DNA from: Neoroseomonas terrae
Lineage (GTDB): Bacteria; Pseudomonadota; Alphaproteobacteria; Acetobacterales; Acetobacteraceae
Length of the DNA: 64,000 bases
NCBI RefSeq assembly: GCF_018129025.1
Contig: NZ_JAAEDI010000012.1
Coordinates: forward strand, 62,001-126,000
Direction: 5' to 3'
Position 1 is the first letter of the stretch. Each line of letters begins with the position of its first letter. Of this stretch, positions 2,990 to 18,059 are shown in pieces. The notes beneath the pieces were generated by a model, which worked only from the letters and a program-made list of their open reading frames with translations, was not told the DNA's origin and searched no databases. The position numbers were made by a program, and so were the translations under genes.

Positions 2990-3325
2990 ATGCCGATCCA
3001 GATCGAACCGTTGTGGTGGATCACGGCCGTGGAGGCGCCTGTCGTGGCGGCGCTGTTCTGGATGATCCATGGCCTGCGCAACGACATGCAGCAGCGCTTC
3101 GAGCGCGGCGACCAGCGCGAATCCGATGCGCTGACGCGCACACGGGATGAGCTGGCGCAGTTCAAGATCGAGGTGGCGCGGACCTATGTGCCGCTGTCGC
3201 TGATCCGTGATCTCGACCGGCGGATGTCCGACCACCTGGTGCGGATCGAGGAGAAGCTGGAGGAGGTGTCGCGCGCCGGGATCGCTGTGGCGCAGGCGGC
3301 GCGCCGGATGGAGGAACGGGAGTGA
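2990..3325 (+). CDS. Membrane-anchored coiled-coil phage protein
   Basis: 111 aa. An N-terminal hydrophobic segment (residues 8-25, rich in Trp, Ala and Val) is followed by a long charged helix likely to form a coiled coil (residues 28-110, many Arg/Glu/Asp and heptad Leu/Ile/Val). Layout and size resemble small holin-associated or XhlA-type phage proteins, which sit next to endolysins. Its TGA overlaps the GTG of the hydrolase remnant (GTGA), supporting a lysis-module reading. The ATG at 2990 is the first start that puts the membrane segment at the N-terminus. Family not certain. Confidence 0.6.
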   Translation: MPIQIEPLWWITAVEAPVVAALFWMIHGLRNDMQQRFERGDQRESDALTRTRDELAQFKIEVARTYVPLSLIRDLDRRMSDHLVRIEEKLEEVSRAGIAVAQAARRMEERE

Positions 3326-3529
3326 GCGCGGCGCTTCGCCAGGATGGCGGCGTCGAGATCCTCGCCCTGACCTTTGGGGAGAGGCAGCCGGGCGCCCCGT
3401 GCGCGCGATCGAAGCGATGGCGGCACTGGTGATGAACCGGGCGCGGCAGGCGGCGGTGCCCGGCGGGCCGGCACATTGGGGGCGGGACGTCGCGGCGGTG
3501 TGCCGCGCGCCGTTCCAGTTCCCGTGCTG
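3322..3529 (+). pseudogene. SleB-type cell-wall hydrolase, 5' part (interrupted)
   Basis: GTG at 3322 starts a protein that reads VEILALT and then, after a one-base slip near 3371-3379, WGEAAGRPVRAIEAMAAL, VMNRARQ and FQFP. This is the N-terminal half of a SleB/CwlJ-like hydrolase whose WGEA Glu and FQFSCW-type motif are hallmarks. Two lesions are visible. One C appears to be missing (ACC TTT GGG where ACC CTT TGG G is expected). The gene is then cut at CGTGCTG by an 11.8-kb insertion, and the remainder lies at 15321-15559. The 208 bases here plus the 232 after the right core make 440, and adding the missing base gives exactly 147 codons. It probably served as prophage endolysin. Confidence 0.8.
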
Positions 3530-3542
3530 TCTGCGCAACCAC
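3523..3542 (+). repeat. Left attachment site, imperfect direct repeat
   Basis: CGTGCTG, four bases TCTG, then CGCAACCAC. The same layout recurs at 15321-15340 with GAAC in the four variable positions. The right copy completes the hydrolase codons (Cys-Trp-Asn), so crossover most likely fell in the left 7-bp CGTGCTG block; seven bases is a typical tyrosine-recombinase overlap. Confidence 0.75.
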
Positions 3543-3646
3543 ACCTCATGCCCGCTCATGGCCGCTCACGCATGAGCCTGTATGCCCGCAATTACCTCAT
3601 TTTCCCCCAAACGCTCGCTCACCGCGTTCCATTCCCGCTCACCCTA

Positions 3647-3682
3647 GTCCACAATCTGGTTGTGGACAGGACCGTGGACAGG
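3647..3682 (+). repeat. Left-end inverted and direct repeats, possible integrase arm sites
   Basis: TGTGGACAGG at 3661-3670 and CGTGGACAGG at 3673-3682 are direct repeats with 12-bp spacing, start to start. GTCCACAA at 3647-3654 is an inverted copy of TTGTGGAC at 3660-3667. The integrase ATG follows 7 bp later. A matching pair lies near the right end (15239-15260). They could be arm-type integrase sites, an operator for the integrase, or DnaA-box-like sites. Confidence 0.55.
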
Positions 3683-3689
3683 GGTCGCG

Positions 3690-4979
3690 ATGCCGAAACA
3701 GAACGTGCTGACAGTGAGGGAGGCGGCTGCCCTCATCCGGGCTGGCAGACCGGGCGCCACAAGCGACGGAGCCGGCCTTAGCCTGCGGGTAGCAGGGCCG
3801 GGGTCCGCCCGATGGACCCTGCGATATCAGCGCGACGGCCGCGCCCGTGAGGCTGGCCTCGGAGGCGTAGGCGTCCAGGGCGACCGCCTGACCGGCGTTG
3901 GTCTCGCTGATGCCCGCCTTCGCGCCGAACAGGCCCGAGCCATGCTGCGGGATGGCCTGGACCCGATCGCGGAGGCCGAGAAGGCGAAGCCGGCCACCGT
4001 GACCTTCGGCGACGTGTTGACGATCGTCATGGACGACAAGGTGTCCTCGAACCGATCCGCGAGGCACCGGGCACAGTGGCGCGCGACCCTGTCGAGATAT
4101 GCGGCCGACCTGATCGAGAAGCCCGTTGAGGGCATCGTCACCGATGACGTGCTGGCCGTGCTGCGCCCGATCTGGACCCGCATTCCCGAGACGGCATCCC
4201 GGGTCCGGCAGCGGATCGAGGCGGTACTGACCGCAGCATCGGTGCGCAATCTCCGGCAAGGTCAGAACCCGGCGCAATGGCGCGGGCACCTTCAGGGCAT
4301 CCTCCCGGCGCCGCGCAAGGTGAAGCCGACCGAGAACCATCCGGCGCTGGCTTGGCAGCAGATGCCGGCGTTCTGGTCCGCGTTGGCGGAGCGCAAGGCG
4401 AAGTCGAACGTTGCGCTGAGGTTCTTGATCTTGTGCGCCAGCAGGACGGGCGAGGTGCGGGGTATGAGGCGCCGGGAGGTGGACCTCGACACCGCGACGT
4501 GGACCATACCGGCGGGGCGCATGAAGGCCGGCAGAATGCACCGCGTCGCGCTCAGCACGCCGGCCCTGGCGATCCTGAAGGACCGCATCACGACCGACAC
4601 CGGGGCGATGGACCTGTTGTTTCCAGGCGTGCATCCGAGCCGGCCGATGAGCGATTGGACACTAAGGAAGGCGTTGGACGCCGCGAACCCGGCCGAGACG
4701 GACGCGGACGATGCGCTGCCATGCTGGCGTGACGAGCGGGATCGCCCAATTACGCCCCACGGCTTCAGGTCGAGCTTCAGGGTGTGGTGCGCGGAGAGCG
4801 GCGTGTCCGACGCATTAGCTGAAGCGGCCCTTGCCCACGTTGTCCGCGGTGTCGAGGGCGCTTATCAGCGAAGTGACCTAATCGAGCAGCGCCGCCCCGT
4901 GATGGAGCGCTGGGCGCAGCACTGTCTGGGCCAGACAGCGAAGATCGTGCCGCTGCGGCGGAAGTCGCGGGCATCATGA
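3690..4979 (+). CDS. int: Tyrosine recombinase / P4-type integrase
   Basis: 429 aa, catalysing site-specific insertion and probably excision of the element. An N-terminal arm-binding DUF4102-like region (about residues 1-95) is followed by a SAM-like core-binding domain (about 100-205) and a catalytic domain. The active-site set is complete: Arg252 in ASRTGEV, Lys279 in RMKAGR, His357 and Arg360 in PHGFR, His383 in LAHVV and Tyr392 in GAYQRS. I chose the ATG at 3690 because the preceding codons fall in the GTGGACAGG repeat region. The stop overlaps the next gene (ATGA), so the two are probably co-transcribed. The gene reads inward from the left att site. Confidence 0.95.
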   Translation: MPKQNVLTVREAAALIRAGRPGATSDGAGLSLRVAGPGSARWTLRYQRDGRAREAGLGGVGVQGDRLTGVGLADARLRAEQARAMLRDGLDPIAEAEKAKPATVTFGDVLTIVMDDKVSSNRSARHRAQWRATLSRYAADLIEKPVEGIVTDDVLAVLRPIWTRIPETASRVRQRIEAVLTAASVRNLRQGQNPAQWRGHLQGILPAPRKVKPTENHPALAWQQMPAFWSALAERKAKSNVALRFLILCASRTGEVRGMRRREVDLDTATWTIPAGRMKAGRMHRVALSTPALAILKDRITTDTGAMDLLFPGVHPSRPMSDWTLRKALDAANPAETDADDALPCWRDERDRPITPHGFRSSFRVWCAESGVSDALAEAALAHVVRGVEGAYQRSDLIEQRRPVMERWAQHCLGQTAKIVPLRRKSRAS

Positions 4980-5587
4980 AGTTGATCCCTCCCAACAGTG
5001 ACACCGCCGCCCGCCGGAGGGGCCGACCACGAACGCAGCCCTTCCTTCCGGCCCGTGCCCGCGCCGCTATCGCTGCGCTTTTAAGCGGCGACGAGCAATC
5101 GGCCATCGATCACGGGATCACGCCGGAGGCCATGAGGGAGTATTGTGCGAGCCGGCGCGGCGAGCATGGTGCCGCCGTCGCCGCAATACGATCGGGGCTG
5201 ATCGCCACTAAGGAGGCCTCCACCTCTTTCACGGTAAGGGATCAGGCGCGTGACATCGTACGCCATTTGCGGGAATGGGAGGCCGCGACCCTCCGCGGGA
5301 AGCCGGACTACACCCCGCAAAACGATCCACTCTATCCCGTCTACAGGTTCGCGCGCGGTGACCTCGACGCCAAGGATATTGGCGACGTTCGGTTTGGTCG
5401 TTCTGGCGACATCGGCAGCGTCGAAGCGGAGACGCTGATCGTCCCGCCGAGCACCCCCGCCTATCTCATCGGCAACGTTGCCTGGACGCTTTCGCTCGTC
5501 GCGAAAGCCGGCAGCTTCGACGACTTCGGCATAGCGTATTTCGCGTTCGCTAGGCTGGGCGAGGCTATAGAGGAAAAGTCCGATTAA
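4976..5587 (+). CDS. Hypothetical protein coupled to the integrase
   Basis: 203 aa; start overlaps the integrase stop by 4 bp. The N-terminus is basic ([11 protein letters not shown], an AT-hook-like GRPR motif), followed by a helical segment that could bind DNA (residues 30-60). The C-terminal half has mixed hydrophobic strands (ETLIVPPSTPAYLIG). I do not recognise the family. Coupling to the integrase suggests a role in recombination, its control or early element functions, but this is context only. Confidence 0.6.
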   Translation: MKLIPPNSDTAARRRGRPRTQPFLPARARAAIAALLSGDEQSAIDHGITPEAMREYCASRRGEHGAAVAAIRSGLIATKEASTSFTVRDQARDIVRHLREWEAATLRGKPDYTPQNDPLYPVYRFARGDLDAKDIGDVRFGRSGDIGSVEAETLIVPPSTPAYLIGNVAWTLSLVAKAGSFDDFGIAYFAFARLGEAIEEKSD

Positions 5588-5656
5588 TCTCTTCTCGCTC
5601 GGTGTCGGCGCCAGCGATAGATGGATGCCCGCTGAACCACATTGAGCGGGGTTGAA

Positions 5657-6052
5657 ATGCTGAAGCGAAAGTCCGAGCCGGCCGCCGACAAGGCGGAGAA
5701 GGCGGGTAAGACCGCCACAGTTGTGGGCGCCGCTCGGCGCGCATCGATGATCCCCGGCCTAGACCTCTTGCCCCAGGACGGTTCCGGCATCGCGCCATCC
5801 CGCGCGACACTTCGTCGTTGGAATGAACGCATCATGGCGGCCGGCGGAGAAGCGCTGCTGGTCAAAGTCGGTGGGACCGTCTTCATCCGCACCGCAGTCT
5901 TGGCACAGCATTGCGCGCGTGAGGCCGTGGCGGTGGTTGCCGGCGCGGCCCCTGATGGTGGAGCGCGCCGGAAGAAGGCTGCCGATCCGACAAGGCCGCC
6001 CTCCACGCCCGCGGCTCGCCGGAAGCCCGCACGGCGCAGCGCATCGGCCTGA
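5657..6052 (+). CDS. Possible excisionase/AlpA-like DNA-binding protein
   Basis: 131 aa from the ATG at 5657; a TTG at 5642 in the same frame is an alternative. The central part (about residues 40-90) has a helix with ATLRRWNERI followed by GGTVFIRTAVLAQHC, the order of a short winged helix-turn-helix with a beta hairpin as in excisionases of P4-like elements. Both ends are basic and Ala/Pro-rich (ARRKPARRSASA at the C-terminus). Its place after the integrase operon fits recombination directionality control. The assignment rests on weak pattern similarity and context. Confidence 0.45.
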   Translation: MLKRKSEPAADKAEKAGKTATVVGAARRASMIPGLDLLPQDGSGIAPSRATLRRWNERIMAAGGEALLVKVGGTVFIRTAVLAQHCAREAVAVVAGAAPDGGARRKKAADPTRPPSTPAARRKPARRSASA

Positions 6053-6184
6053 CCCGAAAAGGAACGGCCGGCGGCGCGAACCAACTCGCACACGCCGGCC
6101 GGAGATCGACGCCCGTCGCACAGGGTCGGTCTCCGGTTAGCATGATCGCGACCTCGGTTTCCAGCGTCGCCGGCCGGCACCGCC

Positions 6185-7129
6185 ATGGCCGCGCGCACCG
6201 GCAGCACCGAGCCTCAACCGCACCCGCCAGGGCCTGGCGGCGCGCGTTGCGACATCCAAACGACCTTCCCGACTTGCGGGAAGTCCGAGGGGGGCAAAAA
6301 GCGCGGCCGGCCGCCAGTTTTGGTGCGGTCAAAGGGCCGATACGTAGATAGGGAACAATCTAGCCCCGCCGCCCTGATCCACCGCGCTGTCACCCTGCTC
6401 GATGCCGCAGCCGCGCTTGGTCGCCGCTGGTGGATCGGTTGCACGATCAGGCCCCGCGATCTTCCTGGCGCCTGGGATGCCGCCCGCACGCGAGTTCTGT
6501 GGACCGCAGTGGCAGCCGCTGCCCGCGACTTCTTGCGGAAGCGGGTGAAGGAACAGCCGGTCGCGTCGATCGCCTCGGTCCAGATGCAGGCCCGTTCCGG
6601 TGCTCACCTTCATGCCGCGTTGCTGGTCCAGCCCTTCCTCGCTGGACCTCTTAGACGCGCCATAGAGCGCGCGGTCTGCCGCTTCGCTGACGTGTCGAAG
6701 CTCCCGCCATACGCCATCCACTGGTGCGCGGACGGCAGCGCGTTGGGGGCCAAGGAGCCTTCAGGCGACCGGCGTACCCGAGCCCTGATGCACGATGGCC
6801 CCGGCGGCCGGCTGCGTGGATGGGTCGGCTACGTGCTGGCTGCGCTTCCCGAGCCCGGCGAGATCATCGCGGCCGGCGGCGCCGAGGTGATCGGCAAGGA
6901 GGGCGCGCGCCCGATCCAGGGCCGGCGGCTGATGATGTCCAGCGCGGACGCGCTTCGAAGCTGGGCCGAACGACAGGCCAGTCCCCCGGCTCCCTCGCGC
7001 CGGCTGAAGCAACGCCAGCAGCGATCCAAAGCATCACGTTCACATCGTCCAGAGAAGGAGGGAGTTGATGCCGCTGACCGCAACATCCAGAGCAATCAGG
7101 GCGATCCCGATGCCGCCGCCGGCCCATAG
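6185..7129 (+). CDS. Candidate HUH-type Rep/relaxase-like protein
   Basis: 314 aa. Three features in the usual order suggest an HUH endonuclease: a hydrophobic strand RWWIGCTI (81-88), the His-hydrophobic-His motif GAHLHAALLV (139-148, His141 and His143), and a downstream helix RGWVGYVLAAL with Tyr216 as a possible catalytic tyrosine. The N-terminal 60 residues are low-complexity and the start is uncertain; the C-terminus is basic. Such proteins nick a strand to start rolling-circle replication or transfer. No second conserved Tyr or helicase domain is seen. Conservation of the motif in homologues is needed to trust this. It would give the element its own replication. Confidence 0.4.
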   Translation: MAARTGSTEPQPHPPGPGGARCDIQTTFPTCGKSEGGKKRGRPPVLVRSKGRYVDREQSSPAALIHRAVTLLDAAAALGRRWWIGCTIRPRDLPGAWDAARTRVLWTAVAAAARDFLRKRVKEQPVASIASVQMQARSGAHLHAALLVQPFLAGPLRRAIERAVCRFADVSKLPPYAIHWCADGSALGAKEPSGDRRTRALMHDGPGGRLRGWVGYVLAALPEPGEIIAAGGAEVIGKEGARPIQGRRLMMSSADALRSWAERQASPPAPSRRLKQRQQRSKASRSHRPEKEGVDAADRNIQSNQGDPDAAAGP

Positions 7130-7352
7130 CGACGCCTGGGCCACGGGCTGGACCATCAAGCCACAGCATCACGCCCAGGCTCGGTCGCTTGGCCTGGACG
7201 TCGAAGCACAGGCGCGAACATTCCACTTCGTCGCCATCGCGCTCAACCACCCCATCCAGGACCCCGATCACGCATTCGTGGACTGGCTCCGCGACCGCGG
7301 CCGACGCGGCGGTTGGCGTGCACAGGACCGTACGCCCGGCACAGCGCCATGA
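7068..7352 (+). CDS. Small hypothetical protein with replication-protein-like tail
   Basis: 94 aa. A very strong ribosome-binding site (AGAAGGAGGGAG at 7051-7062, ending 5 bases before the ATG at 7068) fixes the start inside the end of the HUH-like gene. The segment ARSLGLDVEAQARTF followed by FVDWLRDRG resembles the C-terminal motif in phage replication proteins of the type LGLD...F...W..WLR. That is a family-level resemblance only; no catalytic motif is visible. It probably belongs to the same replication module as the gene it overlaps. Confidence 0.5.
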   Translation: MPLTATSRAIRAIPMPPPAHSDAWATGWTIKPQHHAQARSLGLDVEAQARTFHFVAIALNHPIQDPDHAFVDWLRDRGRRGGWRAQDRTPGTAP

Positions 7353-7668
7353 TCGCGATGGCGTCGTTCTCCGACACGGTGAGGCTGACGGTGGCGTCCA
7401 AGGCGTCGCTGAGGGAGGGGGCGCCTCCCCCGGCCGTGGTGTCGCCGGAGGAGACCGGCGCCGGCCAGGGGAGGCTTGGGGGTCCACCCACGGCGCCCGC
7501 GCCGAGCTACGGCGCCGTGGGATGGGATGCCCCGCCGCCGGTCTCTTCCGGGTCACGGCGGTGGGGACTTTGGGGGGCACGCGGAGAGAGGACGAAGAAC
7601 GCGCGCCAACATCTCCATACCAGAATGTTATGGTTAGGCCATCATCATTCGCGAAGGAGCATGCCTCT
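7353..7668. other. 316-bp gap inside the element, no confident gene
   Basis: An open frame from 7349 (MIAMASFSDTVRL) exists but lacks a good ribosome-binding site and becomes Gly/Pro-rich. The last 60 bases are AT-richer (7610-7660) and end in GAAGGAG, so a promoter for the following phage-like genes probably lies here. No repeats stand out. Confidence 0.4.
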
Positions 7669-8166
7669 ATGTCCGGTACCATGAGCAACAGACCCGGCGC
7701 ACCGCGCAGGCTGAAGTCGATCCGCATCAACGAAATCTCGCTGGTCGCCCGGCCGGCCAATGTCCACGCCGTCGCATTGATGACGAAGTGCGCCGACACC
7801 ACGGCCGCCGACCTCGTCGCGCAGCAGGCCGATATCGCAGCGCGCCTCGATGCGTTGCAAAAGCGCCGGTCGCTGGATGGCGCGCCGGCCCGGCTGCTGA
7901 AGGCTGCGGCCGTGGCCGGTGATCGCATTCGTGCGCAGGTAGAGGGTCGCGCATACAGCGCACCGCTCCCGCCGACGCAGGTCGCGAAGGATGCTGGCGG
8001 TGGCGCCCGTCTTGTCTCGAAGGCTGCATCCATCGCGGAGGCGCACCGCGCCGCGCAGCAGGCCCAGCAGCGTGACACACCGCCGGTCTCGAAGGCCAAC
8101 CTGTCGCCAGCCGAGCTCTTCATCCAGGCCGCTCGCGAGCGCGCCCGGCTCATGAAGGACGGCTGA
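7669..8166 (+). CDS. Phage-protein fragment with ISLVARPAN motif (XkdF-associated)
   Basis: 165 aa. Near the N-terminus, SIRINEISLVARPAN followed by a Val/Ala-rich strand matches the motif IxEISLVDRPANxxA found in phage head-maturation or XkdF-associated proteins. The rest is a helical Ala/Arg-rich segment with no recognised domain. AAGGAG at 7653-7658 supports the ATG at 7669; another ATG lies at 7681. An XkdF-like protease is encoded two genes downstream, so the two may descend from one head-protease module. The separation by 8310-9104 is unusual. Confidence 0.55.
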   Translation: MSGTMSNRPGAPRRLKSIRINEISLVARPANVHAVALMTKCADTTAADLVAQQADIAARLDALQKRRSLDGAPARLLKAAAVAGDRIRAQVEGRAYSAPLPPTQVAKDAGGGARLVSKAASIAEAHRAAQQAQQRDTPPVSKANLSPAELFIQAARERARLMKDG

Positions 8167-8309
8167 CGTGTCCAGGCGACGCCGCCGCGCCCCCCGCGAG
8201 GAACTGGCCGTCACCGGCTGGCGCATCGCGCGCGGTTGCAGTTTCGCCAGTCGATGCGTGCCTCCCGAAGCGGACGACCCCGAGCCCATCCACACCAAGG
8301 AGCCCGACC

Positions 8310-9104
8310 ATGCCGCCCAACACCACGCCGACCAGCAACGCCTCGCGGATCATGCCGCGCAGGACGCCGGCCACCAGCAGGCGCATCACGGCGCCGGTAG
8401 GCGCGCCCGCCGCCGCCCCGCTCGACGCGGTCAAGGCCGCGCCCAAGCCTCCGCCTGATCCCGCCTGGGTGATGCCGTTGCGCGCCGCCCTTGGTGCCCT
8501 CCGCGATGTTGAGCAGCGCCACCGTCATGCGCAGGATCGGCTGCTCGTCGTGCGGCGCGAGGTTGCGGATGCGCGTGCAGCTTTGGCCCGGGAAGAAGCC
8601 GCAGGCCCGATCGACGGCAACGGCCGCAGCGTGGATGTCACCGTAGCAGCCGGCGATCGTCTGAACGCAGCCGAGGTCGAGGCGGCACGCATGAGCCGGA
8701 TCACCGCGGCGCTGGGGGAGCAGGCAGAGACGGCGCGCGCTGCCCTGGGGCCACTAATCGAAGTCGGCCGTGTCGGGAGCATCGAATGGCTCGATACCGA
8801 GCTTGTAGCGATCGACCGGGAGTACCGCGCGGCGGCCGACGCGACCATGTCGATCATCGCCCGGTTCGTAGCGGTGGCGGACCAGGCAGGTGCGCTGCAC
8901 CTGACTGAAGCAGCGATACGGCTCCGCCTTGTCCGATCACTACTGGACAGCGGGGAGGGCGTCATGGAGATCGGCTCCATGCTGGGCATGACGCCGCCCG
9001 TCGCCAGTCCGACCAGCGAGCAGGCCGCCGACCTGCGTCGCCTCCTCGACACGGCGCGCACCGCCGCCGCCGGCAGCACCAGCCAGCATAAGGAGGCCGC
9101 GTGA
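8310..9104 (+). CDS. Hypothetical helical protein, possible scaffold
   Basis: 264 aa with AAGGAG (8295-8300) ahead of the ATG. The first 50 residues are Pro/Ala/Thr-rich and probably disordered. Residues about 60-225 are almost entirely helical with many Ala, Arg, Glu and Leu, including a coiled-coil-prone stretch (RDVEQRHRHAQDRLLVVRR). It lies between two proteins of head-protease type and is coupled to the XkdF-like gene: its TGA overlaps the next ATG (TGATG). A scaffolding role is plausible by position and composition only. No family recognised. Confidence 0.5.
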   Translation: MPPNTTPTSNASRIMPRRTPATSRRITAPVGAPAAAPLDAVKAAPKPPPDPAWVMPLRAALGALRDVEQRHRHAQDRLLVVRREVADARAALAREEAAGPIDGNGRSVDVTVAAGDRLNAAEVEAARMSRITAALGEQAETARAALGPLIEVGRVGSIEWLDTELVAIDREYRAAADATMSIIARFVAVADQAGALHLTEAAIRLRLVRSLLDSGEGVMEIGSMLGMTPPVASPTSEQAADLRRLLDTARTAAAGSTSQHKEAA

Positions 9105-9601
9105 TGGAGATGTTCGCTCAGACGATGGCGCGGCTATACCCGCGGTCAACCCGGAAGTCCGGCCCAAAGATGTTCCTCGATGTCCTTGCTGCCCATGACG
9201 CACGACGCACCGCCAGGGCCGCCGCCGTGTTGAGCGTCACCAAGACGGCGGTGAACACGGAGAAGCGCCTGATCACCGGCTGGGCCAGCGTCGCCACGAT
9301 GGGTGGGAAGGACGTGATCGACCTTCAGGGTGACGTCCTGTCGATCGAGGAAATCCGCGCAGCCGCACACGACTATATCCGGGGGTCGCGACCCGCTCTC
9401 CTGAACCACGCCGGTGAGGCTGTGGCGGAGGTGGTCGAGACCTTCGTTGCCGACGAAGCGGTGCAGAAGGCCTTGGGCGTGGATTTCGGCCGCACGGGCT
9501 GGTTGGTCACGATGTACGTCTCGGACGACGCCACCTGGGCGCGAGTGAAGGCCGGGGAGCTTGCAGCGTTCTCGATCGGCGGCATGGCGATCCGCGAATG
9601 A
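9104..9601 (+). CDS. XkdF-like phage capsid maturation protease
   Basis: 165 aa. The pattern GWASV, then DVIDLQGDVLSIEEI, a His in LLNHAGE, GWLVTMYVSDDATWARVKAGE and SIGGMA at the C-terminus is that of the XkdF-type peptidase family (Peptidase_S78_2), which processes capsid and scaffold proteins. The family shape is complete, though short because the N-terminal extension is brief. AAGGAGG at 9090-9096 supports the ATG at 9104. The stop overlaps the next gene by 4 bp. Finding this protease without portal or major capsid genes suggests the element remodels or borrows a helper capsid. Confidence 0.75.
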   Translation: MEMFAQTMARLYPRSTRKSGPKMFLDVLAAHDARRTARAAAVLSVTKTAVNTEKRLITGWASVATMGGKDVIDLQGDVLSIEEIRAAAHDYIRGSRPALLNHAGEAVAEVVETFVADEAVQKALGVDFGRTGWLVTMYVSDDATWARVKAGELAAFSIGGMAIRE

Positions 9602-9990
9602 CCACCGCCCCGCGCCGCCGCCGCACCGGTGGCCATCCATTCGGCCTGTCGCACCCGGTGCATGTTCGCGCCCGGCTGCGTCAGGCCGAGGCGCTGCGGC
9701 TGAGGATCGCCGGCTTCACGCTGGACGAGATCGCGGCGGCCCTGGGTTACGCCGGCCGGCAGGGCGTGCATGAGGCGCTTCGATCGGCCCGGTCGCATGC
9801 GTCACCAGCGCTGCGGATGGAGGAAGCCACACTCGACCTAGGCAGGCTGGACAGGCTGTTGGCCGCGGTGCTCCCCGCCGCCTTCGCCGGCCGGGTCGGC
9901 CACATCGAGGCGGCATGCCGATTGATCGAGGATCGGCACCGCCTGATCGGCATGCTGACCGCCATCCGTGCAGAGCGCGAACCGCAGTGA
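9598..9990 (+). CDS. Terminase-small-subunit-like HTH protein
   Basis: 130 aa. Residues 31-63 form a sigma-like helix-turn-helix (EALRLRIAGFTLDEIAAALG, then a YAGRQGVHEALRSA recognition segment). A second helical domain follows with RLDRLLAAVLPAAFAG, HIEAACRLIEDRHRLIG. This two-part pattern is common in small terminase-like proteins of phages, which recognise pac or cos DNA. It overlaps the XkdF-like gene (ATGA). No large terminase lies in the element, but one is encoded 7 kb upstream in the flanking prophage remnant. A transcriptional regulator is the alternative. Confidence 0.6.
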   Translation: MTTAPRRRRTGGHPFGLSHPVHVRARLRQAEALRLRIAGFTLDEIAAALGYAGRQGVHEALRSARSHASPALRMEEATLDLGRLDRLLAAVLPAAFAGRVGHIEAACRLIEDRHRLIGMLTAIRAEREPQ

Positions 9991-10071
9991 TGAGGGCCCG
10001 GAGAAGGATGCGGGCCATCGCGTGAGACCCTTGATACTGCGAATGCCGCCGCATACGGTTGCGAATACAGG

Positions 10072-10617
10072 GTGCGGGGATTTAGGCGCGAAGTGCCTAT
10101 CACGGAAGAACACGCCAAGGAGGGAATGTCGCGGGCCCACATTGCAGCCGTCGCTGCAATGGCCGGCGTCTTGGTAGGCAAAACTGATCACGACTACGGT
10201 GTCGATGGGCACTTTAGAGAAGTGCAGGTGCTGCCAAATGGCCAGCATGTCGATGCGGGTGTATCGCTGGATTTTCAGGCGAAGGCGACGACGGTATTCA
10301 CGCGGGAGCAGAACCACATCGCCTATGATCTGGACGCTCGCGCATACAACAACCTTGTCCGGCGGGGGACCTACCGAACCACCCTCATCCTCATATTGCT
10401 TTGTCTGCCGCGCAGCCGGTCGGATTGGCATGAGCTAACGACCGCCGGGACCGTGCTTCGAGATCACTGCTACTGGTTCGTTCTCCCTCCCGGACCGGAA
10501 ACCGGAAACACATCATCGGTGCGCATCAAGGTGCCAACCAGCCAGCGGTTTTCTCCGGAGGCGCTGAAGAAACTTCTGGCGCTAGAGCAGGCGCGCTGCT
10601 CAACGACCTCCCCATGA
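10072..10617 (+). CDS. DUF4365 protein (PD-(D/E)XK nuclease-like)
   Basis: 181 aa. The N-terminus ITEEHAKEGMSRAHIAAVAA, then DHDYGVDGHF (residues 39-48) and SLDFQAKATT (65-74), fit the DUF4365 pattern. Its D...D-x-Q-x-K arrangement (Asp45, Asp67, Gln69, Lys71) resembles the PD-(D/E)XK nuclease core. The C-terminus (RFSPEALKKLLAL) also fits. GTG at 10072 keeps the full domain. The ATG at 10126 has AAGGAGGGA in front but would remove the conserved N-terminal helix start. It overlaps its partner by 4 bp. DUF4365 genes are frequent in defence and mobile contexts; an anti-phage nuclease role is inferred. Confidence 0.75.
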   Translation: MRGFRREVPITEEHAKEGMSRAHIAAVAAMAGVLVGKTDHDYGVDGHFREVQVLPNGQHVDAGVSLDFQAKATTVFTREQNHIAYDLDARAYNNLVRRGTYRTTLILILLCLPRSRSDWHELTTAGTVLRDHCYWFVLPPGPETGNTSSVRIKVPTSQRFSPEALKKLLALEQARCSTTSP

Positions 10618-11816
10618 GCGACAGTGATCGCATAGACCCCGCGACGGTGCCGCTGGAGCTACTCCAGCGGTATGTCCGCGCGCAGGGCTGGCGAAACGCG
10701 ACGCGTGCGGAGGTAGCGTCACCTGAGGTGTCTCGCGATGGGGAAGAAGCCTTCCGTAGCTTCCTAGAGGCACGTAGTGCGGCCCACGTGGACTATCGGT
10801 TGATGGTCAACCCAGCGGACGGTCTAGCGGGCGTCAAGTTGGTTGTACCTGTCGATACGAAGGGCCCGGATTTCCTGTCTCGCATCGACCGGGCTGTTCG
10901 GCTTCTCGCCGCGATTGAGGGTCGCGCAGCCGGCGTGGTGGCACGCGCGATCCGTTCGGTCGGGTTCGATGCAATGTTCAGTCGCCTGCCGGACATCATG
11001 GTCCAAAGCGACACCGTGAGCCTGAAGACAGCAACGGATCATATTGCTGCCTTCAAGTCCGCGCTCGTTAGCACGGCTATGACAGAGCATCGTCCCGTCT
11101 CGCATTATGATCAGCCGAGCAAGGCCGCGACGGACTACGCGGAGGCCTGTCGGTTCGGACACACGTTCCGGGGAAGCTTCGGGTTCAGCATCGAAAGCCC
11201 GCTGGAACGGCGTGACGGTGATCCGCTGTTGGCGGATGTAGAACCGACGCCTCCGTTTGAGAGACGAGTTGTAGCGCGCTTCGTGCGAGGTCTTCGCGCG
11301 GTGGCGGCTGCTGGCTCAACGAGAGATCTGGAACCGTTGATGGACGGCCCAGAACATGGGTTCGGCGCTAACGCCTACGAGGCTGTTGCGAGCCTGATCG
11401 AGACGTCGGGTGTGGGTTTCGCGATAGACGTAAGCCTGAGCCCCGAATGGCTGGCGCCACCGGACATTGGCAAGCAAGCAAGCGTATCTCTCGCCCCCAT
11501 CCATGCGGAGGTTGCGCGTGAAGCGGGAAGAGCGTTGAGGAGGCGCCTGACGCCGGAGTTCGTTGAGATCGTGGGAATGGTCGTGACGCTACGAAGCGAG
11601 CAAAATCCGCAGTTGCTGGACCCGCGCGGCAGTCAGGTCCTTACGGTGAAGTGGACGAGCCCGAAGCACGGCGAGATCAGGACGCAGGTCCGGGTCAGCG
11701 CCGAAGACTATCTAGCTGCCATCCGCGCACATCAGGAGGGGCAGGCAATCCGCGTGAAGGGCACGCTGGAACACCGACATGGATGGGTCTTGGTCGATCC
11801 ATCTCCACTGCATTGA
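10614..11816 (+). CDS. Unknown partner of the DUF4365 protein
   Basis: 400 aa, ATG overlapping the DUF4365 stop (ATGA), so the two form a coupled pair. An N-terminal helix LELLQRYVRAQGWR is followed by mixed alpha/beta (residues 60-200) and a central GHTFRGSFGFSIESPL motif. The C-terminal domain (about 310-400) has VEIVGMVVTLRS, then VRVSAEDYLAAIRAHQEGQAIRVKGTLE, which looks like an OB- or SH3-like beta fold. No Walker, nuclease or membrane motif is visible. I have no family name for it. It probably acts as sensor, regulator or second effector of a two-gene module. Confidence 0.65.
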   Translation: MSDSDRIDPATVPLELLQRYVRAQGWRNATRAEVASPEVSRDGEEAFRSFLEARSAAHVDYRLMVNPADGLAGVKLVVPVDTKGPDFLSRIDRAVRLLAAIEGRAAGVVARAIRSVGFDAMFSRLPDIMVQSDTVSLKTATDHIAAFKSALVSTAMTEHRPVSHYDQPSKAATDYAEACRFGHTFRGSFGFSIESPLERRDGDPLLADVEPTPPFERRVVARFVRGLRAVAAAGSTRDLEPLMDGPEHGFGANAYEAVASLIETSGVGFAIDVSLSPEWLAPPDIGKQASVSLAPIHAEVAREAGRALRRRLTPEFVEIVGMVVTLRSEQNPQLLDPRGSQVLTVKWTSPKHGEIRTQVRVSAEDYLAAIRAHQEGQAIRVKGTLEHRHGWVLVDPSPLH

Positions 11817-11949
11817 CGAGTAAGGCATTGCCCCCGGACGAGGGCCGGAAACCCTAACCAGAAATAGACGGCGCCGCCGCCGGAGTGGCCGCTCTATCGC
11901 TCTATCCGGGTGGACTGATAGCATCGCTACGAAGCATGTCGGAGGGAAC
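11817..11949 (+). other. Gap before the reverse transcriptase, possible ncRNA or promoter
   Basis: 133 bases with no ORF of note. They hold a tandem 8-mer (CGCTCTAT at 11890-11897 and 11898-11905), a short GGG/CCC hairpin near 11845 and the self-complementary GGCGCC inside a GC-rich run near 11873. The gap ends in GGAGGGA before the GTG start of the RT gene. Some defence RTs use an adjacent ncRNA, so the gap deserves attention, but nothing here proves a transcript. Confidence 0.3.
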
Positions 11950-13542
11950 GTGACCTTTCGTCTTAGTGAAGCGTCCCTGACGAACGCCATCAAACATCTC
12001 TGTCGCTATGGCGACACGGACGTGTTCCCTCACTTGCCCGAGTTGGCTTTTCTTAGAGAACAAGAAAATGCGGTAGTAAAAGAGCTAGCTCAATTGGACC
12101 TCGATACATTTGATCCGGTCGGCGCCATTGAGGCCCTGGGACCCAAGAGCCGCTTTAGCTTCCGGATCGTGCACCAGATGCCGCTGCTCGATACCGTGTT
12201 GCTCCTCGCGGCCGTCGTTGAGATCGGCCCGTCCATTGAGGCACATCGGCAGCCTCCCGAGGAACACCGTGCCTTCTCGTATCGCTTCGCATTGGACGGC
12301 AACGGAGCTATCTTCAGCCCGGACCGGACGTTCAGGGCTTGGCTTCAAGCTCAGCTTGCACTTGTGAAGGCCAATTTGAAGATCCGAAATATCATCAGCA
12401 CGGACATTTCGGACTTCTACGCGCGGGTAAACTACCATCGACTTGAGAACCTGCTTGCCGAAGTTGCACCAAAGCACGGTGCAGCGAGATACATTTTGAA
12501 GCACATCAAAGTCATTCGAGCGAAGCAGTCGTTCGGGGTTCCGGTCGGCGGAAGTGCTGCGCGATTATTGGCTGAACTCGCGCTCGCCGACACAGACCTC
12601 GCGATCAGGCAGGAAGGTCTACTTTCAACGCGGTTTGTCGATGATTTTCGGATTTTCCTACAAGCGCATGAGGATCCTTATGACGCTCTGGCGTTGCTGG
12701 CAGAGCAACTGGGACTGAGCGAAGGCCTATCGTTAAACGCGGCGAAAACTAAAGTGGAAACGCGGGCCGAGTTTCTTGCGCGCCTCCGGCATCTTGTGGC
12801 GGACGTTGCGGAAGAAGCCGAAGGAGCTGCGCTCGAGGCTCTTACTAGCGATATCTACTTCGATGATGAACCTGATGCGGCGGACCTCGAGGCACTAAAG
12901 AGCATGAACCTCTTAGGGTTCCTGCAGGAGGAAGTAGGCGAAGAAGCCTTCGATATGGGGCGCATCAAGGTCATTTTTCGCGCCCTGACCCTCGCAAAGC
13001 CATCTGAAGCCGTGGAATATATCCGAGATAATTTTACTGAACTTGTGGTATTCGCGAAAGAAATGACGATATTAATGCAGGCTCTACAGAATGACAATCG
13101 CGGGTGCTTTGCGGATCTTACCGAAACGGTGATAGATACTATATTGTCGCCCCCTTCATCAAGCATTCAAACAATCAAAACTTGGCTTATGGAGCTCTTC
13201 GTGCGTGGGGTGGTTCCGATAGACGCTTCCGGCGTGAAGAGGTTGGAGACACTCTCTTCGCCGCTAGATCGCCGCCAACTCCACCTGATCCGTGGGCGTA
13301 TCCGCGATCGCCTGTATTTCCGGCGAGGGAAGACCGGCTTCGGGCAGTTGTCCGATATGGAGCAATCCTGCTTCGTCTGGGGGGCGAGTTGCCTGCCGAA
13401 AGACGAGTTTGAGAGCTGGTTAACGATGGCTAAGTCGATCTTTGCCAGGCCGCTGGGCGCGCTCTACCTCAAATGGGCGGAGCAGCAGCGAGGCAAGCTG
13501 TTCGCGAAGTTGGAAACGCCGACTGACGATCATCAAGAGTAA
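11950..13542 (+). CDS. Reverse transcriptase, unknown/Abi group (defence RT candidate)
   Basis: 530 aa. RT motif A is TDISDFY (Asp152, Asp155), motif B FGVPVGGSAARLLAE (195-209), motif C RFVDDF (Asp231, Asp232) and motif D NAAKT (263-267), so the polymerase site is intact. The FVDD form and the GVPVG..A.RLLAE signature are those of the stand-alone UG/Abi RTs, several of which are anti-phage DRT systems, rather than retrons or group II introns. No maturase or zinc-finger domain is seen. Residues 280-530 are helical and unrecognised, as in many such RTs. GTG start with GGAGGGA. It is markedly AT-richer than its neighbours, a sign of transfer. Confidence 0.85.
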   Translation: MTFRLSEASLTNAIKHLCRYGDTDVFPHLPELAFLREQENAVVKELAQLDLDTFDPVGAIEALGPKSRFSFRIVHQMPLLDTVLLLAAVVEIGPSIEAHRQPPEEHRAFSYRFALDGNGAIFSPDRTFRAWLQAQLALVKANLKIRNIISTDISDFYARVNYHRLENLLAEVAPKHGAARYILKHIKVIRAKQSFGVPVGGSAARLLAELALADTDLAIRQEGLLSTRFVDDFRIFLQAHEDPYDALALLAEQLGLSEGLSLNAAKTKVETRAEFLARLRHLVADVAEEAEGAALEALTSDIYFDDEPDAADLEALKSMNLLGFLQEEVGEEAFDMGRIKVIFRALTLAKPSEAVEYIRDNFTELVVFAKEMTILMQALQNDNRGCFADLTETVIDTILSPPSSSIQTIKTWLMELFVRGVVPIDASGVKRLETLSSPLDRRQLHLIRGRIRDRLYFRRGKTGFGQLSDMEQSCFVWGASCLPKDEFESWLTMAKSIFARPLGALYLKWAEQQRGKLFAKLETPTDDHQE

Positions 13543-13695
13543 CGCGCTCTTAGCGGCCGGGCACACCCGCTACTGCTTCCGTCACATCAGGATGCCTTTA
13601 GCGGCGGCGATGGAGGCCGATGGTGCTCTTCGCGAGGTCCATGGGCACCCTGCCTATTCGTTTTCGTATGGGGCCCGATTGAGTACCCTGGCGCA

Positions 13696-14508
13696 ATGGC
13701 TTCCGATCATCCTCCGCCGCCGAAGGTTGACCCCAACGAAGTGGAGCGATTGCGCGCACACCTGAACCTTGTTCCTCAGGCTCGCGTAGCCTGCCTCGCG
13801 ATGATCGACGCGATGGGGGCCACGGACCTAAACGACTTCTCGGTGCCGAAGCAGACCGTCTTCGGGCTGGTCGCCCGATCAGTGGGAAATCTTCAAGGTG
13901 TGGACCTGCTGCTCCGGGCCGAGCGGATTGTGGAGGCGCGGACCATCACCCGATGCCTCGTCGAGAACTTAGTCTTGTTGGCCAGCATCTACGCTCGGCC
14001 GGACCGGACGCTGGAAGAGCTTCAGCGGGATTTCGTCAAAAGCCGGGTCGTGCGCGCGGACATCCTCGCCAAGGGAGGAAGTGACGTGATCGAGCCGGAG
14101 CAACTGGCCCGACTACAGGCATTCGCTTCAGACCTCAGAGGGCGGCACCCGAAGACCAGCTACCTAAATCAGACACGGCTCGCCGCGGATACATTCGCGG
14201 AAGGGGCCATGGCGACATACAGCCTTCTGTCGGACGATGCGGCGCATGCCACCGTCGCTTCACTTGCCCGCCACATCCTCCTTCAGCAGTCTGGCGCCAG
14301 AGAACTCATCCCCTACCCCGAGCCGTCAGTATCGGAGGCGTGTCACACGGCCGCCACCGCCACCAACATGACCCTCGGGCTACTTCTCGGTTCCAGGGAC
14401 ATCTTCGGCAACGCGCTGGGGGAACAGGACATCCTGAAGCTGCACACCGAGTTGTCGGCCGTGAAGGCACGCTGGCCGCCCCGGCCGGGCACGCTGGACC
14501 CGACCTAG
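13696..14508 (+). CDS. DUF5677-like protein
   Basis: 270 aa. The all-helical N-terminal part has LLLRAERIVEARTITRCLVENLVLLASIY (residues about 74-102 of the frame), then LNQTRLAADTF and a YSLLSDDAAHATVASL motif, which fit the DUF5677 pattern (an R..E motif, then S...H). The function of that family is unknown. It follows the RT by 154 bp with no clear terminator, so it may be its accessory or a separate cargo gene. The ATG at 13696 is the first in frame. Confidence 0.55.
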   Translation: MASDHPPPPKVDPNEVERLRAHLNLVPQARVACLAMIDAMGATDLNDFSVPKQTVFGLVARSVGNLQGVDLLLRAERIVEARTITRCLVENLVLLASIYARPDRTLEELQRDFVKSRVVRADILAKGGSDVIEPEQLARLQAFASDLRGRHPKTSYLNQTRLAADTFAEGAMATYSLLSDDAAHATVASLARHILLQQSGARELIPYPEPSVSEACHTAATATNMTLGLLLGSRDIFGNALGEQDILKLHTELSAVKARWPPRPGTLDPT

Positions 14509-14665
14509 GAGGCAACCCTTACCTGCCTATCATAGGCGCCGCGGACCATGAGGTCCGACCTCGCAATCAGCGCCTGCGAGATTGGCGGCACGTTCCGCGT
14601 CTTGCCCCCCATGCCGCCCTCGCGGCTAGGATGGATCGGACGTCGATGCCAGTCGGGGGGGCAGC

Positions 14666-14932
14666 ATGGACTTCGACAGCACAGAGCCGGAGTTCCCGGT
14701 CCGCGTGTTCTTTTACGCCACAGATGGCGAGGCGAGCGTGTCTGACGATATTGGGACCGTTGTGCGCGACGAAGCACATGTCGAGCAGGTGGCTCGCGAA
14801 ACAGCACGCGCCATCATGGCGAACCAGCCCGAGCGAACGGACTGGTCCGATTGGGGGGTCATCCCCGTTACCGAGGAACGTGACGGGGTCGAGATCGAAT
14901 TCGATGAGGTTCCGTTCCCTCCGCCGCACTAG
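14666..14932 (+). CDS. Small DUF6894-like protein
   Basis: 88 aa. The pattern VRVFFYATDGEASVSDDIGTVV, then a helix with VARETARAIMA and a final strand GVEIEFDEV, resembles DUF6894 (YFF...DG...D..G....A...A...A), a short family of unknown function common in alphaproteobacteria. It is acidic, and GGGGGGCAGC precedes the ATG. It is the last gene in the element before a 390-bp C-rich non-coding end. Confidence 0.5.
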   Translation: MDFDSTEPEFPVRVFFYATDGEASVSDDIGTVVRDEAHVEQVARETARAIMANQPERTDWSDWGVIPVTEERDGVEIEFDEVPFPPPH

Positions 14933-15320
14933 CGCGTCGCCCGTCCTGCCCCCGCCTCTGTCGCCCTGGCCTGACAATCCGTGGGCGCCTGTGCCGCCTG
15001 GACAGGTCGCGGACCCTGCTGCCGACCCGCCCCCGCCTGTTGCCCTGTAGCGCCCTCCCCAGCCCGCCGCAGCCGTCCATGCGCCTGCCTGACGAGCCGA
15101 GCCGTGTCCCGCAGCGCCCCGCCCGAGCCGCCCCAGCGCCCGCCAGAGCACCCCAGCACCGCCTAGAGTGCCCTGAGCTGCCGCTGAGCCCGCCCAGCCG
15201 CCCGCCTGATCCAGCCGCGCCCCAGGAGACCGGCCGGCCGTGGACAGGATTGTGGACAAGCAATGGTCGCCTGTCAGAAAAATCCATTATTTCAATTTAG
15301 TAGACCATACTTCCCGCAGA
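14933..15320 (+). other. C-rich non-coding right end of the element
   Basis: 390 bases without a credible gene. From about 14940 to 15235 the plus strand is strikingly C-rich (29 C against 18 G in 15061-15120), with GCCCC, CGCCC and GCCTG words repeated many times; the other strand is G-rich. The last 60 bases (15262-15320) are instead AT-rich (AAAAATCCATTATTTCAATTTAG), as expected for a bending or IHF-like site at an attachment end. It could hold recombination arm sites, a packaging site or an origin; none is demonstrated. Confidence 0.5.
15239..15260 (+). repeat. Right-end pair of GTGGACA repeats
   Basis: CGTGGACAGG at 15239-15248 and TGTGGACAAG at 15251-15260. The 12-bp spacing and orientation are the same as the pair at 3661-3682 at the left end. 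They lie 61 bp inside the right attachment core. Conservation of sequence and spacing at both ends points to integrase or accessory-protein binding. Confidence 0.6.
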
Positions 15321-15340
15321 CGTGCTGGAACCGCAACCAC
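15321..15340 (+). repeat. Right attachment site, imperfect direct repeat
   Basis: CGTGCTG, GAAC, CGCAACCAC, matching the left site in 16 of 20 positions. From TGC at 15323 the hydrolase frame resumes as Cys-Trp-Asn-Arg-Asn-His-Pro. This indicates that GAAC and what follows are ancestral host sequence. Confidence 0.75.
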
Positions 15341-15559
15341 CCGCGCCATGCCGCGCTGCGGGAGGTGCCGGCGGGTGACGGAGCGCTGGCGATCTGCCGG
15401 CGGGTGGCGGCGCGGGCGATCGCGGGGTCGCTGCCGGACCCCACCGGCGGCGCGACGCATTTCCACGATGCGCTGGCGCTGCCGGGATGGGCCCTCGGCC
15501 GGCCGGCAGCGGCCGAGATCGGCGGGCTGTGCTTCTACCGGGCTGAAGACCTAGGCTAG
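15321..15559 (+). pseudogene. SleB-type cell-wall hydrolase, 3' part
   Basis: The frame from 15323 reads CWNRNHPRHAAL, then LAICRRVAARAIAGSLPDPT, GGATHFHDALALPGWA and IGGLCFYRAEDLG. This is the C-terminal half of a SleB-type hydrolase, with the GGATHFH catalytic-region motif intact. It has no start of its own in host sequence; an ATG-like start at 15263 lies in element DNA (MVACQKN) and would give a 98-aa chimeric product of doubtful use. The 5' half lies at 3322-3529. Confidence 0.85.
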
Positions 15560-17003: not shown

Positions 17004-18059
17004 ATGATCCCTTCCCTCGCCTCCGCCCTCATGCCGTTGATGCGCGGCCTCGACGCCGAAACCGCACATGGGATCGCGCTGAAAGCGCTCGCCGCGGGGC
17101 TTGCCGGTCGTGATTCGGGCCGCGACGACCCGGTGCTGGCGACGGAGGCGCTCGGCCTGCGCTTCCGCAATCCGATCGGCCTGGCCGCCGGCTTCGACAA
17201 GGATGCGGTGGCGGTGCTGCCGCTGATGCGGCTCGGCTTCGGCTTCGTCGAGGCCGGCACCGTCACGCCGCGCCCGCAGCCCGGCAATCCCCGCCCGCGC
17301 CTGTTCCGGCTGACCGAGGACCAGGCGGTGATCAACCGCATGGGCTTCAACAATGGCGGGCTGGACGGCTATGTCGCGCGGCTGCGCGACCTGCCGGCGG
17401 AACGCCCCGCGGTGTTCGGTGCGAACATCGGCATCAACAAGGAAGGCGCCGATCCGGAACGCGACTACCCGGCGCTGTATGCCGCCGTCGCGCCGTTCGC
17501 TGATTACGTCACCATGAATGTGTCCTCCCCCAACACGCCGGGCCTGCGGGACCTGCAGGGGGAGGAGAAGCTGGCCGCGATTCTTGATGCCATTGCGGCA
17601 ACGCGCGCGACGCTGCCGCGCACCCCGCCGCTGCTGGTGAAGATCGCGCCGGACCTCGCCGACGACGCGCTGCCGCCGATCGTGCAGGCCTGCCTGACGC
17701 GCGGTGTGGCGGGGCTGATCGTGTCCAACACCACCATCGCACGGCCTCCGCTGACCTCCCCGCACGCAAAGGAAGCGGGCGGGCTGTCCGGCGCCCCGCT
17801 CTTCGCACCCTCCACCGAGGTGCTGCGCAAGGTGTTCCGCATCGCGCGCGGGCGGCTGGTGCTGATCGGCGTCGGCGGCATCGCGACCGCCGAGCAGGCC
17901 TACGCGAAGATCCGCGCCGGCGCCTCGCTGGTGCAGTTCTATTCCGCCTTCGCCTATGCCGGGCCGGCGCTGCCGAGGCGGATCGCCGATGGCCTCGCCG
18001 TGCTGCTGAAGCGCGACGGCTTCACTTCTGTCGCCGACGCCGTCGGCAAGGATGCGTGA
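17004..18059 (+). CDS. pyrD: Dihydroorotate dehydrogenase (quinone), class 2
   Basis: 351 aa. It oxidises dihydroorotate to orotate with ubiquinone in de novo pyrimidine synthesis, at the inner membrane. NPIGLAAGFDKDA, TVTPRPQPGNPRPRLFR, NRMGFNN, MNVSSPNTPGLR (the catalytic Ser region), LIVSNTT and GVGGI with the FMN-binding end are all present. The N-terminal helix (SLASALMPLMRGLDAETAHGIA) is the membrane-associating extension of class 2. The ATG at 17004 is the usual start. The stop overlaps the next gene, so it heads a three-gene operon. Confidence 0.95.
   Translation: MIPSLASALMPLMRGLDAETAHGIALKALAAGLAGRDSGRDDPVLATEALGLRFRNPIGLAAGFDKDAVAVLPLMRLGFGFVEAGTVTPRPQPGNPRPRLFRLTEDQAVINRMGFNNGGLDGYVARLRDLPAERPAVFGANIGINKEGADPERDYPALYAAVAPFADYVTMNVSSPNTPGLRDLQGEEKLAAILDAIAATRATLPRTPPLLVKIAPDLADDALPPIVQACLTRGVAGLIVSNTTIARPPLTSPHAKEAGGLSGAPLFAPSTEVLRKVFRIARGRLVLIGVGGIATAEQAYAKIRAGASLVQFYSAFAYAGPALPRRIADGLAVLLKRDGFTSVADAVGKDA

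Follow-up and report, generated by a model that had tools for sequence, protein, structure and literature searches.

The window analysed here is a stretch of 64,000 nucleotides of the Neoroseomonas terrae genome (positions 62,001 to 126,000 of contig NZ_JAAEDI010000012.1, contig C12 of a 5.77-Mb assembly in 67 contigs), and it contains an integrative element of 11,798 bp at positions 3523-15320, with a second copy of its core repeat at 15321-15327, that splits the lysin gene closing a cluster of podovirus-like genes. The account which we consider probable is that of a site-specific mobile defence island with a pair of phage-head genes, which has inserted into the lysin gene of a podovirus-like particle locus of apparently vertical descent. 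The conserved locus is a more important object than the element interrupting it. The parts of the element and of its surroundings in the window lie on the forward strand, and the positions below are those of the window unless stated otherwise.

The ends of the element were established by an extended-pattern scan and by the comparison with intact relatives, which place the left core repeat CGTGCTG (attL) at 3523-3529 and the right one (attR) at 15321-15327. The core by itself proves nothing, because this GC-rich window holds many copies of it (46 versus 17.8 expected), and it is the extended pattern CGTGCTG-N4-CGCAACCAC, with up to two mismatches allowed, that occurs in exactly two copies, one per end and both perfect (0.14 expected; none of 100 shuffles reached two). 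The flanks joined at the core align unbroken across the junction to all 11 Neoroseomonas-group loci compared, at 77-86% identity, with the junction at query position 207 and the alignments starting at 1-33 and ending at 432-437 (second records of the same genomes and more diverged loci of the same genus were left out of this comparison). The site is thus uninterrupted in 11 of 11 compared genomes of the group, and the hydrolase gene, as the lysin was called in an earlier note on this DNA, is intact in all six genomes of the same genus. The exact ends within a split hydrolase, claimed in that note, are therefore borne out, and the evidence argues for a single insertion of the whole 11.8 kb and against the separate arrival of a left and a right half, which the note had named as a possible objection. 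Direct repeats at both ends, the uninterrupted site in relatives and a complete tyrosine integrase gene together mark a site-specific integrative element, and its end structure is, as judged from the sequence, what a tyrosine integrase leaves. The deduced attP, CGCAGA-CGTGCTG-TCTGCG, shows by eye 6-bp inverted arms around the core. Most likely, the integrase recombined a circular form at the 7-bp overlap CGTGCTG into the conserved F-P-C-W codons of the lysin. The integrase gene itself lies at 3660-4979 (TTG start at 3660 or ATG at 3690) and matches PF13356, PF22022, PF00589 and phrog_1 (1.8e-45); the designation P4 type, already given in the earlier note, is a reading of these three domains.

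The right half of the element carries two predicted defence systems, PDC-M02AB and the defence reverse transcriptase (DRT) DRT8. PDC-M02A at 10072-10617 (PADLOC 2.1e-59; DUF4365 3e-17) and its predicted partner PDC-M02B at 10614-11816 (PADLOC 2.1e-116) are adjacent, as is expected of this system, and the DRT8 gene at 11950-13542 matches the PADLOC family Drt8 at 3.2e-131 along residues 5-513 of 530, which is a full-length family match, and RVT_1 at 1.8e-9, so that the reverse transcriptase and the DUF4365 protein of the earlier note both stand. According to two papers of 2026 (PMC13213688, PMC13314766), DRT8 protects by a mechanism as yet unresolved, and it is such a DRT that the element carries. 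The two systems would protect the host, and the element would work mainly as a mobile defence island. Directly 3' of DRT8 there is a gene for a DUF5677 protein (13696-14508; PF18928 3e-8), followed by one for a DUF6894 protein (14666-14932; PF21834 4.2e-6). The GC content of the cargo part is 0.55-0.62 (10001-13500) versus 0.65-0.71 to its left, and the element is therefore a mosaic in origin; no frame break was noticed inside it.

Among the seven genes that follow the integrase up to position 9990, telling matches were obtained for two only, the XkdF-type prohead protease and a scaffold-like protein. The protease at 9101-9601, proposed in the earlier note, matches PF14550 (4.4e-14) and four PHROG families of head maturation proteases below 1e-6, the top PHROG match (2e-22) being a family named DNA methyltransferase. 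The head module turned out slightly better than claimed there with the addition of the scaffold-like head protein at 7669-8166, the frame of which is open further upstream: its N-terminus, with the motif EISLVARPAN, resembles that of the scaffold-like protein which phages encode next to XkdF, on its 3' side (hhalign E 1.7e-5, with a probability of 78.8 and no more than 27 columns), it matches phrog_12449 of unknown function (4.9e-5), and nothing like it was found among the phages searched. The pair may be what is left of a phage-head module, or the least of one that still works, and it could have let a helper phage package the element.

It was asked in the earlier note whether the element is a phage satellite, and this reading was upheld in its anatomy, with one element, exact ends, head genes and antiviral cargo, and found no support as to the terminase-small gene, the helper and the relatives elsewhere. 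An integrase without the full virion gene set is what a satellite has, and neither capsid, portal nor large terminase genes lie inside the element. A true satellite would use its own protease and scaffold to redirect the capsid of an XkdF-type helper, would be packaged as an 11.8-kb genome and would defend its host against other phages by its cargo. The protease and scaffold-like pair in company with no capsid, portal or large terminase gene, the long open frames, the P4-type integrase and the defence cargo all agree with this. However, the gene order is unlike that of phage head modules, the scaffold-like gene preceding XkdF here and following it in phages; no terminase-small homologue was recognised with Pfam and PHROGs, and the host genome shows no helper marker, nor were sister elements found, so that we regard such a satellite as unlikely. 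The helix-turn-helix protein of 130 residues at 9598-9990, which the earlier note had taken for terminase-small-like, has its best PHROG match (phrog_645, 3e-11) in a family named RNase E, of nucleotide metabolism, and the only relative found (32% identity, in L125) stands in no recognised terminase neighbourhood, the searches having given nothing among phages and one distant match among viral contigs; the terminase-small reading was rejected on these tests.

The helper was sought in the host genome, and none is visible, because its 67-contig assembly contains no second XkdF, no PF05065 capsid (a search whose control was positive in four of 14 named genomes) and no match to the XkdF-type capsid query (a search that had no positive control). 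A second, distant podovirus-type capsid gene (30% identity) was observed near a contig end at G000:C18:1188-1991 and belongs perhaps to an ordinary prophage. The block of genes as a whole was sought at other sites, as the earlier note had proposed, and the collections searched gave empty or weak matches, with the scope that not every protein of the element was compared with every collection and that pattern scans reach close relatives only. Relatives of the integrase occur in 107 of the 299 family genomes at E 1e-60, the host's own included, with about 51% identity or less over the full length and a single partial match at 55%, and have no match in viral contigs; none of the 14 neighbourhoods looked at around the nearest integrases shares another protein of the element, even at E 0.01.

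The XkdF relatives that were read (in G190, G108, phage CRP-6, two phage-like plasmid regions and IMG/VR contigs) sit among phage structural genes, with the exception of L018 9957-10238 in G016, a truncated XkdF-like frame beside a gene of 183 residues outside any phage cluster. The objection foreseen in the earlier note, that homologous blocks might always come with full phage genes, thus holds for the protease, the L018 copy apart, and does not reach the whole block, which is without relatives. The position of XkdF relatives in phage head modules favours a decayed prophage remnant, in which an XkdF-type prophage would have lost most of its genes and later taken up a defence island, its integrase and ends being left; the lower GC of the cargo, which indicates a mosaic, points in this direction as well. 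It is opposed by the lack of any noticed frame break, the exact ends, the retention of two head genes only and in changed order, and by three left-half proteins having no match in 50,697 phage records, and we find a remnant of this sort rather doubtful. In our reading, the element is an integrative defence island with satellite-like remnants, while an undescribed type of satellite is possible.

The other left-half proteins add little to this choice. The gene at 4976-5587 encodes a 203-residue protein with no family match in Pfam, PHROG and PADLOC and with just five weak matches besides itself in the 299 family genomes, and a 136-residue protein (5642-6052), also with no family match, is of possible excisionase type by eye only. 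For the 264-residue protein at 8310-9104, no relatives were found in the Pfam, PHROG, viral contig and phage searches. The 314-residue protein at 6185-7129 was suggested in the earlier note to be an HUH initiator, which could not be sustained beyond a candidate: there is an HLHAALL motif recognised by eye, no family and no PDB match, and a single-sequence AlphaFold model with a predicted local distance difference test score of 39.9, of no use. This motif and a weak match to the primase family phrog_510 (E 0.064) are all that speaks for a replication module in the element. The protein had no match in genome contigs, viral contigs or phages. Besides itself, it gave three weak matches in the 299 family genomes, with E values of about 4e-4 to 7e-4; in the loci read these lie within or overlap housekeeping genes, and they were taken as spurious.

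The locus into which the element landed had been overlooked in the earlier note: the tail and terminase genes, and beyond the window start those of the capsid and portal, lie immediately upstream, and the split hydrolase is the last gene of their cluster. This cluster of about 13 kb occupies G000:C12 at about 52.0-65.5 kb, from L022 9973 up to position 3529 of the window, and resumes at 15321-15559, in the order: S24-type repressor, two small genes, portal-type head-tail adaptor, T7-type capsid assembly protein, capsid, tail tubes, internal virion protein, tail fibre, 105-residue protein, large terminase, holin-like protein and split lysin, as identified by PHROG families and, for the repressor and the capsid assembly protein, by Pfam. 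Within the window there are the C-terminal part of the tail fibre gene (1-858; it starts upstream, at L022 18518, and is one gene in L053), the genes of the 105-residue protein (855-1172; in 64 of 65 loci, no Pfam family) and the large terminase (1150-2592; phrog_38 4.9e-79; 65 of 65 loci), and that of the holin-like protein, named from its place and sequence (2990-3325; 61 of 65 loci, no Pfam family). Farther downstream lies pyrD (17004-18059; PF01180 1.2e-77), a frequent neighbour of the locus. In the two loci read by eye, the host's own and L053, the stretch from repressor to lysin has no called integrase or replication gene, so that a near-complete set of particle genes, with packaging and lysis, stands without genes for integration or replication, as in a gene transfer agent (GTA).

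The conservation of the locus in the family was assessed from the capsid, which has matches in 78 of the 299 family genomes and in all seven of the genus. The 72 relative loci, chosen from 77 other genomes by a capsid match of at least 68% identity along most, or nearly most, of its length, all keep gene order and strand for the genes that each contig holds; the seven core particle genes were all matched in 63 of them, most of the others being cut contigs, with L099 having lost the middle of the cluster, and pyrD follows downstream in 35, being cut off or farther away in the others. Among the 65 loci of at least 14 kb, the host's own included and all selected by the capsid, there were found the first tail tube and the terminase in 65, the second tail tube, scaffold and fibre in 64, the portal in 63, and the lysin in 58, of which 54 run in one frame over 80%. 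The mean Nei-Gojobori ratio of nonsynonymous to synonymous substitutions for five members of the genus is 0.07-0.42 by gene, versus 0.155 for pyrD and 0.29 for a HAD gene. Protein distances across 30 loci were correlated with those of pyrD by the Mantel test (none of 999 permutations reached each r), giving 0.92 for terminase, 0.91 for repressor, 0.89 for portal, 0.65 for capsid and 0.56 for both tail tubes. These results indicate that the locus descends vertically, keeps its place and is under purifying selection, more weakly so for the capsid and tail tubes, the descent being judged from gene distances with no species tree.

Beyond the family, capsid matches were obtained in 70 of 289 class-wide genomes, 45 of which, the host's included, have at least 52% identity (two of the 45 with stop codons) and represent 32 alphaproteobacterial families besides that of the host, 33 in all. 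A search of 20 distant loci, mostly the best of 44, recovered the second tail tube in all 20, the first one and the terminase in 19 each, the fibre in 17, the scaffold in 13 and the portal in 12 (once rearranged), with pyrD within reach in eight. The gene set is so taken to be old, in some lineages split or rearranged or too diverged for the search, and often keeping its chromosomal neighbour. The GTDB scan gave at least 560 relatives. Podovirus-like genes were also seen to persist in small genomes, of 0.9 Mb (L235 in G484, with a rearranged portal) and 1.9 Mb (L236 in G495).

The rival to a GTA is an ordinary or dying prophage, to which podovirus-type genes throughout, the existence of phages with related capsids (116 records, all below 60% identity) and a few lysins broken in other genomes would conform, as would the vertical descent, with patchy persistence, of which prophage lineages are capable (PMC10386132). 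This is countered by the same order in many genera, with pyrD adjoining in the family and other-family loci counted above, by the purifying selection, by the lack of called integrase and replication genes in the two loci read, and by IMG/VR, which lists at least 589 copies as viral and has the best 80 of them on contigs of 4 kb to at most 16.2 kb. Contigs of this length would suit a short fixed locus better than a 40-kb phage, although trimming by that pipeline may add to the effect, and viral catalogues may count a bacterial locus as phages. A peat-moss virome paper (PMC12142844) reports phage-like contigs that align to Acetobacteraceae genomes and that may or may not include this locus. An ordinary prophage is accordingly a minority view for us. 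We lean towards a GTA, the particles of which are deduced from genes, because genes for particles, packaging and lysis, unaccompanied by any for replication or integration where the loci were read, have kept their place under purifying selection. Searches of open-access papers aimed at this locus gave no description of it as a GTA.

The lysin, of SleB type, is divided into a 5' part at 3322-3529 and a 3' part at 15321-15559 (PF07486 2.1e-5; 25.5 bits, with a cut-off of 27), both parts being recognised by the intact gene of relatives. In addition, its 5' part contains a frameshift at about 3370-3385, before the insertion point, which the earlier note did not mention; in six relatives of the same genus the frame is intact. 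Since the frameshift lies upstream, excision alone would not obviously restore the lysin, and a reversible switch is thereby spoken against, unless the frameshift is a sequencing error. The insertion and frameshift should stop the release of particles by the lysin in this strain. From here one may think of an anti-GTA parasite, in which selection would favour the insertion for preventing lysis of the host by the locus, and the lysin with the element in it does belong to a locus that has its other genes open in this strain. However, this is the case in this genome only: the 152 loci, in which some genomes count twice, yielded 119 other lysins, not one of them split by an element. Of these, 114 have their full length, four are interrupted by a frameshift or a stop and have their halves side by side (one genome accounting for two of the four), and one is truncated where its stretch ends; besides, the integrase may simply recognise conserved codons. 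Selection of this kind appears to us improbable, and recurrent landing of elements in the lysin was rejected on the present data. Like this strain, L076, L178 and L113 have broken lysins, and the 33 loci without a lysin match are many of them short or cut and some of full length (e.g., the Elioraea loci), perhaps with a different lysin. A Caulobacter study (PMC13236601) reports that GTA release requires an immune-like system; the presence here of a defence element in a lysis gene may be chance.

Several points weigh against the account of a mobile defence island in a vertically inherited particle locus. The searches described gave neither a relative of the element nor another copy of it, so that its mobility is deduced from its anatomy alone. 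The defence function is assigned by family only, PDC-M02 being a candidate system and DRT8 one of unresolved mechanism, as noted above. An assembly error may account for the frameshift in the lysin. The distances of the capsid and tail tubes follow pyrD less well, by which part of the locus may recombine, and in seven of the 20 distant loci the portal, at least, was not found at its place.

Whether a protease and scaffold-like pair is enough for a satellite could be tested on this compact element. The wider proposal is a second, class-wide GTA of Alphaproteobacteria, of podovirus type and beside pyrD in many lineages, with the element having shut off the release of particles in this strain as a natural knock-out, itself a passenger or a parasite; we offer it tentatively, at slightly less than an even chance. 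If the locus is a GTA, it would be present in 33 sampled families by the capsid at the identity given, including genomes near 1 Mb, and if the proposal is true, gene transfer could be put to the test in bacteria of the Roseomonas type and in their relatives, for which this strain would already provide the lysis mutant.

P4-like satellites and phage-inducible chromosomal islands have a tyrosine integrase, compact size, some phage-head genes and defence cargo, and redirect their helpers by such genes as terminase small, sid, psu and cpm. The element is alike in the first four respects and unlike in that its head genes are of XkdF type and no helper was found in the host genome; neither a capsid-redirecting gene nor AlpA, primase-helicase or terminase-small genes were recognised in it with Pfam and PHROGs, and the XkdF and scaffold-like pair is the only candidate for helper redirection. 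The small elements of the same family with the nearest integrases (L338-L344; 44-48% identity by BLAST) differ from it in that several have AlpA-like and primase- or helicase-like genes, as judged by eye. With the XkdF-type head modules of Roseobacter phage CRP-6, the phage-like Pseudomonas plasmid p2463-1 and IMG/VR contigs, it shares the protease and the scaffold-like protein, whose N-terminus there reads EVSLVDRPAN; these modules continue with capsid and tail genes, whereas the element has two genes only, in the reversed order. To the DRT8 and PDC-M02 systems it is related by near full-length family matches. As for the flanking locus, RcGTA is siphovirus-like, and the locus is unlike it in its podovirus-type capsid, tail tubes and terminase. 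It resembles the GTAs of the RcGTA type and FpGTA of Faecalibacterium, the latter thought to be podovirus-like (PMC12946183), in being a conserved particle locus with packaging and lysis genes, known here from the genes alone.

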